Below, one piece after another: positions 47,049 through 52,294 of a stretch of DNA of 64,000 bases. The DNA is from an uncultured Pelagibacteraceae bacterium (lineage in GTDB: Bacteria > Pseudomonadota > Alphaproteobacteria > Pelagibacterales > Pelagibacteraceae), in contig CACMJX010000003.1 of the NCBI GenBank assembly GCA_902614055.1, positions 1-64,000 on the forward strand, written 5' to 3'. Made by a program: the position numbers and the translations under genes. Under the pieces are notes generated by a model. That model saw nothing but the letters and a program-made list of their open reading frames with translations. It did not search any database and was not told where the DNA came from. The stretch's first letter is position 1. Each line of letters starts with the position of its first letter.

Positions 47049-48149
47049 TTAATTTATTCCGTTTAACTTACAAGAGCTGTCAAAATCCTCTTTGTTAATA
47101 TAACATCCAGACATTTTTCTAACTCCATTAAACGATCCTCTACCATGAAGTATTCGCCAATTATTAAATATTAGAAGTTCTCCAGGTTTAAGGATATATC
47201 GCCACTGATAATCTTTATTATTCGCAATAAGATCAAATTTTTTTATTGCTTCATAAAACTTCAATGTTAAATCTTTTTCAAATCTAAATGGTGCTCGATC
47301 ATAATTATTAAAACTAACTTGAACTATTTCATTATTTTCATTTAACTTAAATATTGGTCTTTCAGCCTCAAGATAAACACCATCACCGATATAATTTCCC
47401 TTAACATTTATTTTTGTCATTAATTCATACATCGGCTGGTTTTCTTTTTTTATTGTTTCTGCTATTTTTAATCCATCAACCATAATAGATTCACCACCTT
47501 GAGCATTATATTCACAACATAGTAATAATTGTAATCCTGGAGCGTCATTACTATATGTTGAATCTGTATGAGGTCTCAGTTCTTCTTGAGTGTATGCGCT
47601 ATCTGCTTTATTTTCATCTGACTCAAAACTCCATAGTCCTCCAAATATAGAGTTTCTTACATAACCAATTCTATTTGCAATTGTTTCAACAGACTTTAAA
47701 TTAGTTTCACAATTTTTAATTACTGAAAATCCATAGTCATGAATATTTTTCAAAAAATATTTAAATCCTTCATTTGATAAAATTGAATTATAATCTAAAA
47801 AAATTTCTTCTTTTATTTCATTAGCTTTCCAGATTTTTAAATTAGATTTTACTTCTTTTTTCTTTTTTATTTTATTATTAGTTAGAAATTCAGATGAATA
47901 TTTAACTGGTTTTTCTAAATCAGGCCATGAGACACACAAATATTTTCCATTTTCAATTATTTCTGCCTTTTTAACTTTTAAATTTATATCTAAAGCTGCC
48001 GTAAATGTTTTCCTTTGGCTAGACCTTTTATCCCAATTTTGCTCATCTTTTGCATGATCTCTTAGCCAAATATTAGGAAAAATTTCAGAATTTTCTTCAT
48101 TAAAGTGGACGTGCACATCATCTGCTAGTATTTCAATTTTAGTAATCAT
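47049..48149 (-). CDS. Gamma-butyrobetaine/trimethyllysine dioxygenase-like (TauD family) enzyme
   Basis: A 366-residue Fe(II)/2-oxoglutarate oxygenase. A small N-terminal beta domain (about 1-90, with IWLRDHAKDEQNW) precedes the TauD-type jelly roll. The metal triad is His194 and Asp196 in RPHTDSTYS and the later His in ILHGRGSF; the 2-oxoglutarate-binding Arg is probably in GVRKMSGCY. The two-domain layout matches gamma-butyrobetaine and trimethyllysine hydroxylases, which act in carnitine metabolism. The cysteines that bind zinc in the N-domain of animal enzymes are not visible. The exact substrate is unproven. It overlaps the E2 stop by four bases. Confidence 0.82.
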   Translation of the reverse strand: MITKIEILADDVHVHFNEENSEIFPNIWLRDHAKDEQNWDKRSSQRKTFTAALDINLKVKKAEIIENGKYLCVSWPDLEKPVKYSSEFLTNNKIKKKKEVKSNLKIWKANEIKEEIFLDYNSILSNEGFKYFLKNIHDYGFSVIKNCETNLKSVETIANRIGYVRNSIFGGLWSFESDENKADSAYTQEELRPHTDSTYSNDAPGLQLLLCCEYNAQGGESIMVDGLKIAETIKKENQPMYELMTKINVKGNYIGDGVYLEAERPIFKLNENNEIVQVSFNNYDRAPFRFEKDLTLKFYEAIKKFDLIANNKDYQWRYILKPGELLIFNNWRILHGRGSFNGVRKMSGCYINKEDFDSSCKLNGIN

Positions 48150-49072
48150 TTACTCAAGTTATATGCAAAATTAGACCCAAGATTATCTTTTAATTCGTTA
48201 TTAAACTTCGCAGCCTCAGCACCATCTATAATTCTGTGATCATATGAGAGAGATAGTGGAAGCATGGTTCTTGGAACAAATTTACCATCAATAAATACCT
48301 GTTTTTTATAACTTCTACCAACGCCAAGTATAGCAACTTCTGGAAAGTTAATTATTGGTGTAAAAAACGAACCACCTATGCCACCTAAGCTTGTGATAGT
48401 CATTGACCCTCCAAAGAACTCTTTTTTATCAATTTTTAAATTTCTACAATCATCACTTACTTTTTTTAATTCCTCACTTAACTGATTGATATCTTTTTGA
48501 TTAGCATCTCTAATTTTAGGAACCATAAGTCCATGTTGAGTATCAACTGCGATACCAACATGAAAATACTTTTTAAAAGTAATCTTTCCATTTTCAATAT
48601 CATCAATTGATGAATTAAATGATGGAAATTTTTTAAGTGAAAGTACCAATGCTTTTATAATAAATGCAAGAGGAGTAATTTTTATTCTTTCTCCTGTATA
48701 ATTATCTTTTATTGAGCTTCTAAACTCTTCCATTTCTGTAATATCAGCCTCATCATGGTTAGTTACATGTGGAATGTTTGTCCACGAATTTACAAGATGT
48801 GGAGCTGCTATTTTTTTTACTCTAGGAATATCTTTAATTTCAACTTCCCCAAAATCTGAATGTTGATATTCGCTTTTAATAATTTTTTCTTTTTGTCTTT
48901 CACTATTATTCTGAGGATGATTGATTCTTGATGAGACAAAGTCTTTTAAATCTTTTTCAACAACCCTACCTGATCTCTCTGTTCCCTTAACATTATTTAT
49001 ATCTACTCCAAGTTCTCTTGCAAATTTTCTAACTTTTGGACTTGCGGATATTTTATTTGATTGATCAGACAT
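48146..49072 (-). CDS. aceF: Pyruvate dehydrogenase E2 (dihydrolipoyl acetyltransferase) lacking a lipoyl domain
   Basis: A 308-residue E2 beginning with the peripheral-subunit-binding domain (residues about 10-42: ASPKVRKFARELGVDINNV, then GRVVEKDL). A short linker precedes the catalytic acyltransferase domain, with IPHVTNHDEADITEM, GIAVDTQHGLMVPKI and the active-site SYDHRIIDG (His279). No lipoyl domain exists anywhere in the protein, although E2 normally carries one to three. The missing domain is at the N-terminus of the E1 encoded immediately upstream. The start ATG directly follows the E1 stop. Confidence 0.9.
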   Translation of the reverse strand: MSDQSNKISASPKVRKFARELGVDINNVKGTERSGRVVEKDLKDFVSSRINHPQNNSERQKEKIIKSEYQHSDFGEVEIKDIPRVKKIAAPHLVNSWTNIPHVTNHDEADITEMEEFRSSIKDNYTGERIKITPLAFIIKALVLSLKKFPSFNSSIDDIENGKITFKKYFHVGIAVDTQHGLMVPKIRDANQKDINQLSEELKKVSDDCRNLKIDKKEFFGGSMTITSLGGIGGSFFTPIINFPEVAILGVGRSYKKQVFIDGKFVPRTMLPLSLSYDHRIIDGAEAAKFNNELKDNLGSNFAYNLSK

Positions 49073-52000
49073 TTACATTTTTGTTGGCATGGGTTTGTTT
49101 TTATCAATTTTATACTTTTTGAATGCATCTTCAGCATACTTTGATGCAACAAGCTGCTCATTGGCTAAAACACTAAGGCTATAAGCAACTATGTGTTCTT
49201 TATCTACTTCAAAAAAATTTCTTAAGTTTTTTCTTGTATCACTTCTTCCATATCCATCCGTACCTAATGAATAAAAACTCTTTTTTGTAAAAGGTCTTAT
49301 TTGATCAGCATTTATTCTCATATAGTCAGTGGCTGTAAGGATAGGACCTTGTTGTTTTCCTAAACATTCCTCTACATATGATTTTTTATTTGTTTCTGCA
49401 GGATTTAGAAGATTAAATCTTTCAACTTCAATTCCATTTTTTCTTAACTCATTAAAACTAGTAACACTCCAAACTTCACTATCGACCTGATATTCTTTTT
49501 TAAGAATTTCTGATGCTGCCATCATTTCTCTTAGTATTGTTCCAGAGCCTAATAATTGAATTTTTGCTTCTTTAGAACCTGATGTTTCTTTAATTTTATA
49601 CATTCCTTTGAGAATTCCATCTTCACAATCATCTGGCATTGCAGGGTGAGAGTAATTTTCGTTCATTGTTGTAATATAATAAAAAATATTTTCATTTTTT
49701 TCATGCATCCTTCTTAAACCTTCTCTAAAAATCACAGCTAATTCATAATGGAATGTTGGATCATAAGAAATACAGTTTGGAATTGTTGATGCTAACAAAT
49801 GACTATGACCATCTTGGTGTTGAAGACCTTCTCCTGCAAGTGTTGTTCTTCCTGCGGTCGCACCAATTAAAAAACCTCTCGCTTGACTATCTCCTGCAGC
49901 CCAAGCAAAATCTCCAATTCTTTGAAAGCCAAACATAGAATAGAAAAGATAAATTGGTATCATTTCAATATCATGATTTGTATATGCTGTTCCAGCTGCT
50001 ATCCAAGAAGACATTGAACCAGCTTCTGTAATACCTTCTTCTAATACCTGACCACTTTTTTCTTCTCTATAAGATGAAAGTTGTGCTGAGTCCTCTGGCT
50101 CATATTTTTGACCTTCATGAGCATAAATACCTATTTTTTGAAAGAAACCCTCCATTCCAAATGTTCTAGCTTCATCGGGAATAATTGGAACCAATTTTGG
50201 TGCAACATTTTTATCTCTCAAAAGATTAGTTAACATTCTTACTAATGCCATTGTTGTAGACATTTCTTTTTCACCAGTAGACTTTTTCATAAAATCAAAA
50301 ATATCTTTAACTGGGGCTTTAATCGGTTTCGAATATGATGTTCTCTCTGGAATAAATCCACCAAGTTCTAATCTTCTTTGTTTTAAGTATTTAATTTCTT
50401 CAGAATTTTCGTCAGGTTTAAAATATTCAATATTTTTGACTTGGGAATCTGTTAAAGGAACATCAAACCTATCCCTGTAATACATTAAATCATCAACATC
50501 CAATTTCTTTTGTTGGTGAGTAGTGTTTACACTTTCACCACTTTTACCCATACCATAACCTTTTATAGTTTTAGCTATTATGACTGTGGGGCTTCCTTTG
50601 TGATTGACCGCTTTATCATATGCAGCATAAACTTTGTGAGGATCATGACCTCCTCTATTAAGTTTCCAAATATCAGTATCTGACATTGATGAAACTAATT
50701 CTTTAGTTTCTGGGTATTTGCCAAAAAACTTTTCTCTCACATAAAGCCCATTTCTTGCTTTAAATGCTTGATATTCGCCATCTACGGTCTCATTCATAAT
50801 TTTTACTAAATGTCCTGTCTTATCATTTGCTAAAAGTGAGTCCCAATAAGATCCCCAAATAACTTTTAAAACGTTCCAGCCACCTCCTCTAAAAATACCC
50901 TCTAATTCTTGAATTATTTTTCCATTTCCTCTTACTGGACCGTCTAATCTTTGTAAGTTGCAGTTAACAACAAATATTAAATTATCTAAATTTTCACGCG
51001 CCGCTAAACCAATTGCCCCAAGTGACTCAGGTTCATCCATTTCTCCATCTCCAAGAAAAGCCCAAACTTTTCTTCCCTCATCTTTAATTAATCCTCTATT
51101 GATTAGGTATTTCATAAATCTTGCTTGATATATTGCTAACATTGGACCAATACCCATTGAAACTGTTGGAAACTGCCAAAAGTTTGGCATTAGCCAAGGA
51201 TGAGGATAAGATGAAAGTCCACCAGTTTGCACTTCTTGTCTAAATCTATCTAACTGCTTTTCATTTAGTCTTCCCTCAAGAAAAGCTCTTGCATACATTC
51301 CTGGTGCACTATGACCTTGAAAATATACTAAATCACCTCCGAATTTATTATTTTTTGCTCGCCAAAAATGATTCATACCAACATCATACAAAGTTGCAGC
51401 TGATGCAAATGTTCCTATGTGACCGCCAAGTTCAGGATGTTTTTTATTTGCTCTTACTACCATCGCAGCAGCATTCCATCTAATTAATGATCTTAACTTA
51501 CGTTCTATATTTTGGTCTCCAGGTGATCTTTTTTCCTCTTCAGGGGGTATCGTATTCACATAAGGAGTAGTTTGAGTATGAGGAATTTTAGATCCAGCTT
51601 TATAAGATTGATCAATTAGTTGTTTAATTAGAAAATGAGCCCTTTCAGAACCATCATTTTGCAGAACCGCACTTAAGGAATCTAACCACTCTTTAGTTTC
51701 AACAGGATCAATATCGTCGTTACTACTAACCATTTTAACTTCATTAATCAATCTTGTTTGCTTGATTTGTTTTGGTTCTGTAACTTTTGTTTCAACTTTT
51801 GTGTCAGATTTAGTTGCAGTTTCTGCTTCCTCTATCAATTTCTCTGTTGAAGGCGGAATTTTTTCGTCTAAAGTTTTATTAATTTTGTCATGTTCATCTT
51901 TATTTTCTGAAGAGATAGTTAATATCAAATCACCTTTTGAAACTTTATCACCAATTTTTACATTTATATTTTCAATTGTGCCTTCATAATCAGATGGTAC

Positions 52001-52138
52001 TTCAACACTTGATTTATCGCTTTCTAAAGTGACAACAGGGTCATTTTTATTGATTTTGTCACCTTTTTTTACAAGTACTTCGATTATTTCAACGTTTTCA
52101 AAGTCTCCTATATCAGGAACTAATAAATCTAGATTCAT
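49073..52138 (-). CDS. aceE: Pyruvate dehydrogenase E1 (homodimeric, AceE-type) with fused N-terminal lipoyl domain
   Basis: Thiamine-diphosphate pyruvate dehydrogenase. From the ATG at 52136-52138 the protein is 1021 residues. Residues 1-75 are a lipoyl domain (LLVPDIGDFENVEI, lipoyl-lysine motif ESDKSSVEVPS, Lys42). A charged Thr/Lys/Glu linker runs to about 138, and from about 141 it is a full AceE-type E1 (DIDPVETKEWLDSL, IRWNAAAMVVRANKK). The TDP motif starts at GDGE (363-366) and ends in FVVNCNLQ. E. coli AceE has 887 residues and no lipoyl domain. An in-frame TTG at 52162 would add eight poor residues and is rejected. The aceE-aceF pair is probably one message. Confidence 0.93.
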   Translation of the reverse strand: MNLDLLVPDIGDFENVEIIEVLVKKGDKINKNDPVVTLESDKSSVEVPSDYEGTIENINVKIGDKVSKGDLILTISSENKDEHDKINKTLDEKIPPSTEKLIEEAETATKSDTKVETKVTEPKQIKQTRLINEVKMVSSNDDIDPVETKEWLDSLSAVLQNDGSERAHFLIKQLIDQSYKAGSKIPHTQTTPYVNTIPPEEEKRSPGDQNIERKLRSLIRWNAAAMVVRANKKHPELGGHIGTFASAATLYDVGMNHFWRAKNNKFGGDLVYFQGHSAPGMYARAFLEGRLNEKQLDRFRQEVQTGGLSSYPHPWLMPNFWQFPTVSMGIGPMLAIYQARFMKYLINRGLIKDEGRKVWAFLGDGEMDEPESLGAIGLAARENLDNLIFVVNCNLQRLDGPVRGNGKIIQELEGIFRGGGWNVLKVIWGSYWDSLLANDKTGHLVKIMNETVDGEYQAFKARNGLYVREKFFGKYPETKELVSSMSDTDIWKLNRGGHDPHKVYAAYDKAVNHKGSPTVIIAKTIKGYGMGKSGESVNTTHQQKKLDVDDLMYYRDRFDVPLTDSQVKNIEYFKPDENSEEIKYLKQRRLELGGFIPERTSYSKPIKAPVKDIFDFMKKSTGEKEMSTTMALVRMLTNLLRDKNVAPKLVPIIPDEARTFGMEGFFQKIGIYAHEGQKYEPEDSAQLSSYREEKSGQVLEEGITEAGSMSSWIAAGTAYTNHDIEMIPIYLFYSMFGFQRIGDFAWAAGDSQARGFLIGATAGRTTLAGEGLQHQDGHSHLLASTIPNCISYDPTFHYELAVIFREGLRRMHEKNENIFYYITTMNENYSHPAMPDDCEDGILKGMYKIKETSGSKEAKIQLLGSGTILREMMAASEILKKEYQVDSEVWSVTSFNELRKNGIEVERFNLLNPAETNKKSYVEECLGKQQGPILTATDYMRINADQIRPFTKKSFYSLGTDGYGRSDTRKNLRNFFEVDKEHIVAYSLSVLANEQLVASKYAEDAFKKYKIDKNKPMPTKM

Positions 52139-52217: not shown

Positions 52218-52294
52218 GCGCCTGTAGCTCAATTGGATAGAGCGCTTGGCTACGGACCAGGAGGTTCTGGGTTCAACTCCTAGCAGGCGCACCA
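52218..52294 (+). tRNA. tRNA-Arg (anticodon ACG)
   Basis: Acceptor GCGCCTG/CAGGCGC, D arm AGCTCAATTGGATAGAGC, anticodon stem CTTGG/CCAGG around loop CTACGGA (anticodon ACG, read as ICG after deamination), T arm CTGGGTTCAACTCCTAG, encoded CCA. The next start codon is 15 bases after its 3' end. Confidence 0.97.

Follow-up and report, generated by a model that had tools for sequence, protein, structure and literature searches.

The analysed stretch of DNA (the window) comprises 64,000 nucleotides, positions 1 to 64,000 of contig CACMJX010000003.1 in the assembly GCA_902614055.1 of an uncultured Pelagibacteraceae bacterium (SAR11). It contains two adjacent genes of the pyruvate dehydrogenase (PDH) complex, an aceE-type E1 and an aceF-type E2. 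The E1 chain starts with a lipoyl domain, and the E2 chain has none. Judged by sequence, these genes very probably encode a functional PDH that has its sole swinging arm attached to E1. This appears to be a genuine and uncommon rearrangement of an enzyme of central metabolism, in which the E2 copy of the domain seems to have been lost many times.

E1 and E2 in the window

The E1 gene (49073–52138, minus strand, stop codon included; 1021 amino acids) starts at ATG 52138 and ends with the stop codon at 49073–49075. The open frame extends back to TTG 52162. The lipoyl domain comprises residues 1–78 (51905–52138, minus strand), with a Pfam Biotin_lipoyl match at residues 6–75 (E=1.7e-19). Counted from ATG 52138, the lysine of the lipoyl-lysine motif DK(S/A) is Lys42 (codon 52013–52015), the residue already named in the earlier note. 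The N-terminus also matched the lipoyl part of PDHac_trf_long (the E2 of PDH, E2p) with 90.4 bits. The domain scored 90 bits for the E2p type versus 40–44 bits for the SucB type, and its match to NCBIfam PRK11892 (PDH E1 beta) was weak (22.7 bits). The closest solved structures were 7b9k (Escherichia coli E2p), 1gjx and the lipoyl part of the E3 structure 5u25. In the AlphaFold model, six strands lay within residues 2–76, with a predicted local distance difference test (pLDDT) score of 78–89 for the block. With its profile match, strand-rich fold and lysine motif, the N-terminus qualifies as a lipoyl domain (PF00364) of the E2p type.

A charged linker follows at residues 79–138 (51725–51904, minus strand). 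Residues 80–141 of the model were of low confidence (pLDDT <50) and taken as disordered; helices followed at residues 145–162 and 164–180. The complete lipoyl domain and the flexible linker that the earlier note had described at the start of E1 were both recovered. The remaining residues 139–1021 (49076–51724, minus strand) form the AceE body, with thiamine diphosphate, middle and C-terminal domains. The top folds for the body were the E. coli E1p structures 4qoy, 2g25, 3lq2 and 1l8a (54–56% identity over the body). NCBIfam aceE TIGR00759 matched residues 139–1019 with 1438.7 bits (cut-off: 859.9). Based on this full-length match above the cut-off, E1 is assigned to AceE, the homodimeric type. 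The carrier of the domain is not an E1 of the heterotetrameric type with alpha and beta chains.

The start codon of the E2 gene (48146–49072, minus strand, stop codon included; 308 amino acids) comes directly after the E1 stop codon, so there is no lipoyl segment between the two genes. A Pfam scan of the 308 amino acids gave only two domains, a peripheral subunit-binding domain and an acetyltransferase catalytic domain, both of which a classical E2p has together with lipoyl domains. No lipoyl match was found, and nothing lay ahead of the subunit-binding domain; the absence of the domain from the adjoining E2 was as first noted. The subunit-binding domain (residues 9–42, 48947–49048, minus strand; E3_binding, E=6.6e-12) has helices at 12–21 and 39–51 in the model. 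The catalytic domain (residues 78–298, 48179–48841, minus strand; 2-oxoacid_dh, E=1.3e-75) carries the SYDHR motif, and S276, Y277, D278, H279 and R280 were unchanged across 17 sequences. The E2 model had a mean pLDDT of 76.9, and the first single crystal structures matched were E2p catalytic domains (4n72, E=3.8e-26). The root-mean-square deviation to 4n72 was high (13), and the placing of the parts relative to each other is unsure.

The two-gene layout was repeated in four independently assembled records (L034–L037; 98–99% identity in the E1 body and 99–100% in the E2 catalytic domain), which speaks against an assembly chimera.

Distribution across SAR11

The closest named relatives of the window were uncultured Pelagibacteraceae, and identities of 97–100% suggest that its genome belongs to the same group as the family coded f1. 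The family search gave an AceE match in 343 of 397 genomes. We read 126 family loci whose E1 body was >65% identical to that of the window. E1 loci with <65% identity, i.e. lone second AceE copies (51–54%, no lipoyl domain), are excluded from this count. The lipoyl domain was present in the E1 frame of 118 of the 126 loci, including three single-contig genomes (G012, G419 and G496). Of the remaining eight loci, six ran into contig ends, and L031 and L179 had stops or frame breaks. No intact E1 of this type without a lipoyl domain was found among the 126 loci. The lipoyl E1 occurred in 12 of 14 genera; in g225 and g228, E1 was cut by a contig end.

The E2 state was read in a tree set of 118 distinct rows (a different count from the 118 loci; near-identical rows entered once, and some genomes are in two collections). 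The search of E1 and E2 homologs, as proposed in the earlier note, showed the lipoyl E1 to be family-wide and an E2 lipoyl domain to be present in 63 of the 118 rows. The other 55 had none, a share which is not a frequency, as probable cases were fetched deliberately. Expressed as lipoyl domains on E1:E2, the layouts were 1:0 (53 rows), 1:1 (53 rows), 2:1 (four rows, genera g226 and g5) and 1:2 (two rows, g220). In six rows, E1 was cut or broken.

The four rows with layout 2:1 (L128, L129, L132 and L133) had a tandem pair of lipoyl domains on E1, in frames of 1111–1133 amino acids. In the two g220 rows (L126 and L127), the lysine motif of the second lipoyl-like domain of E2 was replaced (EDEENA and EDDENS). 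This second domain is probably unlipoylated yet kept. Without its lysine, it also shows that dead domains do occur.

A second AceE of 884–902 amino acids, without a lipoyl domain and 51–54% identical, was seen in L196, L197 and L198 (genomes G419, G496 and G010) and in other genomes. No aceF was seen beside it in the L196, L197 and L198 stretches. By eye, its neighbours in L196 and L197 resembled tripartite ATP-independent periplasmic (TRAP) transporter and isocitrate-lyase-family genes. Multiple aceE copies are reported for subclade IIIa in a passage of PMC10030771. In L136 (G502), the E1 match ended at residue 741 while the frame continued (1254 amino acids), probably due to an assembly join.

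Family f2 of the order gave no AceE match (24 genomes; also in an order-level search), and neither did the g1 genomes G552, G608, G632 and G009 (≥90% complete) in the order-level search; PDH itself was not looked for in either case.

Distribution outside SAR11

The lipoyl domain was absent from all 47 outgroup E1 frames; each of the 40 outgroup E2 frames carried one or two. At class level, 11 of 385 genomes had AceE (E 1e-200): five from SAR11, which aligned from the lipoyl domain, and six others, which aligned only from residue 134. The sequence upstream of long AceE frames was read in 15 genomes, and none had the domain. In a phylum search (398 genomes, 161 with AceE), only two of the matches listed started at the lipoyl domain, those of the window's genome and of G419, a member of its family. 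Phyla beyond Pseudomonadota were represented by a few loci only.

Other lipoyl proteins and the role of the E1 domain

The window's genome (1.17 Mb) gave three PF00364 matches: this E1, SucB in the 2-oxoglutarate dehydrogenase (ODH) operon, and AccB. In other genomes, SucB and AccB were judged by frame length (about 420–455 and 90–152 amino acids, respectively). Ten genomes with an E2 lacking the domain all had the E1 domain and an AccB-size frame, and eight had a SucB-size frame (not G016 and G034). The E2 catalytic family consisted of aceF and a SucB-size frame in these eight and of aceF alone in G016 and G034. A second survey comprised 19 genomes, of which G614 had a lipoyl E2. The other 18, each at least 90% complete, lacked the domain on E2; all had lipoyl matches on E1, one SucB-size and one AccB-size frame. 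G582 and G698, two of these 18, had an extra weak partial lipoyl match (22 bits) in a 447-amino-acid frame. A separate lipoyl-bearing E2p, which the earlier note had raised as the possible partner of this E1, was found neither in the window's own genome nor in these relatives with an E2 lacking the domain; no search was aimed at a PdhAB-type E1. Of the genes for lipoylation, lipA was present in all eight genomes tried and lipB in seven; the window's genome has both.

The sole other lipoyl-bearing E2 seen in these genomes was SucB. The E1 domain could then be an accessory or regulatory leftover, with the lipoyl domain of SucB acting in trans for the E2p that lacks one. There is a precedent in Corynebacterium glutamicum, where the lipoyl domains of AceF serve both PDH and ODH, as described in part of PMC7568260. 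We nevertheless regard service by SucB as improbable. The E1 lysine motif ESDKSS was kept in 110 of 112 E1 rows, and the two exceptions (L027 and L060) would be domains cut by contig ends. The ratio of non-synonymous to synonymous substitutions (dN/dS) of the E1 lipoyl domain was 0.02–0.14 against seven of eight relatives and not computable for the eighth. Such low values indicate purifying selection. For the same eight relatives, dN/dS was 0.02–0.09 for the E1 body and 0.08–0.61 for the linker, with synonymous sites near saturation in the more distant pairs. The E2p-type score of the domain, well above its SucB-type score, and the presence of the domain in every intact E1 of this type that was read also argue against a SucB-served complex.

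Several points weigh against an arm tethered solely to E1. The window's genome is 78% complete. In G004, a near relative that is 96% complete, lipB was not found. The dN/dS of the E1 lipoyl domain reached three times the value for the body, i.e. the domain is under weaker constraint. Moreover, E2 chains holding E3 instead of E1 would be armless, and coupling might be poorer.

Stronger constraint on a sole arm was not supported, which adds to these points: the median ratio of domain to core divergence was 1.49 with an E2 lacking the domain and 1.63 with an E2 bearing it (non-independent pairs). The same applies to compensation by the linker. Linker length (counted between the lipoyl match and the point where the E1 body begins to align) had a median of 60 (47–68, n=53) with an E2 lacking the domain and 51 (n=59) with an E2 bearing it, and the rank test gave p=1.8e-12 for rows that are related. 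In seven independent pairs, on average 3.0 pointed the same way and 0.4 the other (median p 0.5), which is a trend only.

History of the lipoyl domain

The core tree was calculated by a quick method from the core columns of E1 and E2, with 118 rows plus eight outgroup rows. The E2 lipoyl state changed eight times on this tree, and the starred branches forced seven to eight changes. When only losses were allowed, the counts for the E2 domain were nine (core tree), 11 (E1 alone) and 14 (E2 alone); unordered changes amounted to 10 on the E1-alone and 11 on the E2-alone tree. No loss of the lipoyl domain on E1 was seen in the 118-row family set. If either arm were equally free to be lost, the two-sided chance of eight out of eight losses on E2 would be 0.008, with the events treated as independent losses.

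The lipoyl-domain tree was based on 78 columns, with outgroup domains from one third of L067–L113 and SAR11 domains from 32 hand-picked loci. The lipoyl domains of SAR11 E1 and E2 grouped together versus 27 outgroup domains (support 97/95). Hence, the most likely origin of the E1 domain is the E2 of this same family. In g226 and in g5 (one row each), the second E1 domain was placed among the E2 domains with modest support.

The earlier note had proposed a shift of the lipoyl domain from E2 to E1. The outcome of this shift holds (a domain on E1, none on E2), but a single jump does not, as the family data favour a copy followed by loss on E2. The likely order is that the domain was copied onto E1 in the family ancestor and the redundant E2 copy was then dropped repeatedly. 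The E2 in the window is best read as a later loss, one of eight or more state changes. Streamlining of the small SAR11 genomes may have driven the loss on E2.

SAR11 bacteria recombine readily, and the E2 state without a domain is patchy in genus g1. Instead of many losses, one deletion allele might have spread sideways among them by recombination. This is slightly less probable still than service by SucB: the E2 catalytic-domain tree needs 11 changes and places the E2s without a domain in 14 groups (245 columns, forks less sure), and their aligned N-termini vary in length and sequence.

A lipoyl domain that was first on E1, with the E2 domains of SAR11 as secondary regains, is very unlikely. 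All 40 outgroup E2s have lipoyl domains and none of the 47 outgroup E1s does, and one of the two deepest SAR11 branches (eight rows) bears the domain on E2 throughout. The unordered counts do allow regains, and a single clade of E1 lipoyl domains was neither shown nor rejected by the lipoyl-domain tree (approximately unbiased test, p-AU 0.566, 78 columns). An assembly chimera, which the earlier note had named as a finding that would refute its reading, or a gene-boundary artefact has practically no chance, being already refuted by the recurrence of the fusion across the family loci and in single-contig genomes.

Docking segment and proposed working

The N-terminal docking segment of E1 (residues 141–182, 51593–51718, minus strand) matched the 49-amino-acid E1 fragment 9h1n_C (E=3.8e-9). 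As far as the displayed alignments go, this fragment and the E. coli E1p chain 3lq2 share the same letters. The PDB entry 9h1n also contains an E2p chain with a subunit-binding domain, and the two presumably touch in this structure. Residues D142, D144, E147, T148 and W151 of E1 were invariant across 40 sequences. In E. coli, the docking site of E1p is the subunit-binding domain of E2, as stated in parts of PMC7568260 and PMC8421416. In SAR11 E2s bearing a lipoyl domain, a median of 42 residues (26–59, n=63) lay between this domain and the subunit-binding domain.

In a PDH with its sole arm on E1, LipB and LipA would modify Lys42. E1 would decarboxylate pyruvate, acetylate the lipoyl arm of its own dimer or of a neighbour and dock via its N-terminal segment onto the subunit-binding domain of E2. 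With its ~60 residues, the linker may give the arm reach to the active site of E2 (transfer to coenzyme A) and to E3 (reoxidation). The arm would have crossed the docking interface and stayed in the same neighbourhood, from ~42 residues before the E2 domain to ~60 residues before the E1 docking segment. The position of the E1 arm at this docking site would account for the dispensability of the E2 copy. The number of arms would scale with bound E1 and not with E2. Lipoylation, catalysis and the reach of the arm are what we infer from sequence.

A further-reaching scheme is offered tentatively, as a possibility that we consider rather less likely than its opposite. The acetyl carrier would belong to the E1 module: E1 dimers might load their own arms, perhaps even ahead of docking, and then bind to an E2 core that has shrunk to a docking site and a transferase. 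The number of arms would be set by E1 binding, which reverses the E2-centred scheme. The family would then form a series of layouts: 2:1, 1:2 (one lysine-less), 1:1 and 1:0.

Neighbouring genes

A tRNA gene (52218–52291) lies on the opposite strand directly upstream of the E1 gene. A TauD-family dioxygenase gene (47049–48149) overlaps the E2 stop by four bases. For the dioxygenase gene, a relative was seen in 28 of the 118 rows; in many loci the stretch is too short to judge.

Comparison with known systems

No description of a lipoyl domain on AceE or in the PDH of SAR11 was found in titles and abstracts of open-licence literature, which is weak proof of absence. In the SAR11 genome paper PMC10030771, aceEF and additional aceE copies are mentioned, and no word starting with 'lipo' occurs in the main text. 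The abstract of this paper calls SAR11 the most abundant heterotrophic bacterioplankton.

Textbooks place the swinging arm of 2-oxoacid dehydrogenase complexes on E2, whereas SAR11 has the arm on E1. This bears on annotation and engineering that assume E2 to be the lipoylated subunit. Natural relatives with both arms, extra arms, lysine-less arms or E1-only arms allow tests of which tether matters for active-site coupling.

The complex resembles the E. coli PDH (AceE-AceF-Lpd) in its homodimer-type AceE (54–56% identity), the docking segment, and the subunit-binding and catalytic domains of E2. The E. coli complex has three lipoyl domains per E2 according to a section of PMC8421416. Unlike it, the window has one lipoyl domain on E1 and none on E2.

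The PDH of Zymomonas mobilis is similar in that a lipoyl domain is located on an E1 chain. Its E1 is heterotetrameric and of another family, and its E2 retains a lipoyl domain. In SAR11, by contrast, the carrier is AceE, and E2 is without the domain. The Zymomonas chain is given as alpha in the relevant passage of PMC7873978, while the title cited there says E1-beta.

Lipoyl domains on E3 are listed in the same part of PMC7873978 for Mycoplasma hyopneumoniae PdhD, Neisseria meningitidis and Alcaligenes eutrophus. These cases share a lipoyl domain on a non-E2 subunit, but the carrier is E3, whereas in SAR11 it is E1. The hybrid PDH-ODH of C. glutamicum is comparable in that the lipoyl domains of one chain serve another enzyme (excerpt of PMC7568260). 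There, however, the arm remains on AceF and is shared, while in SAR11 it is on E1.

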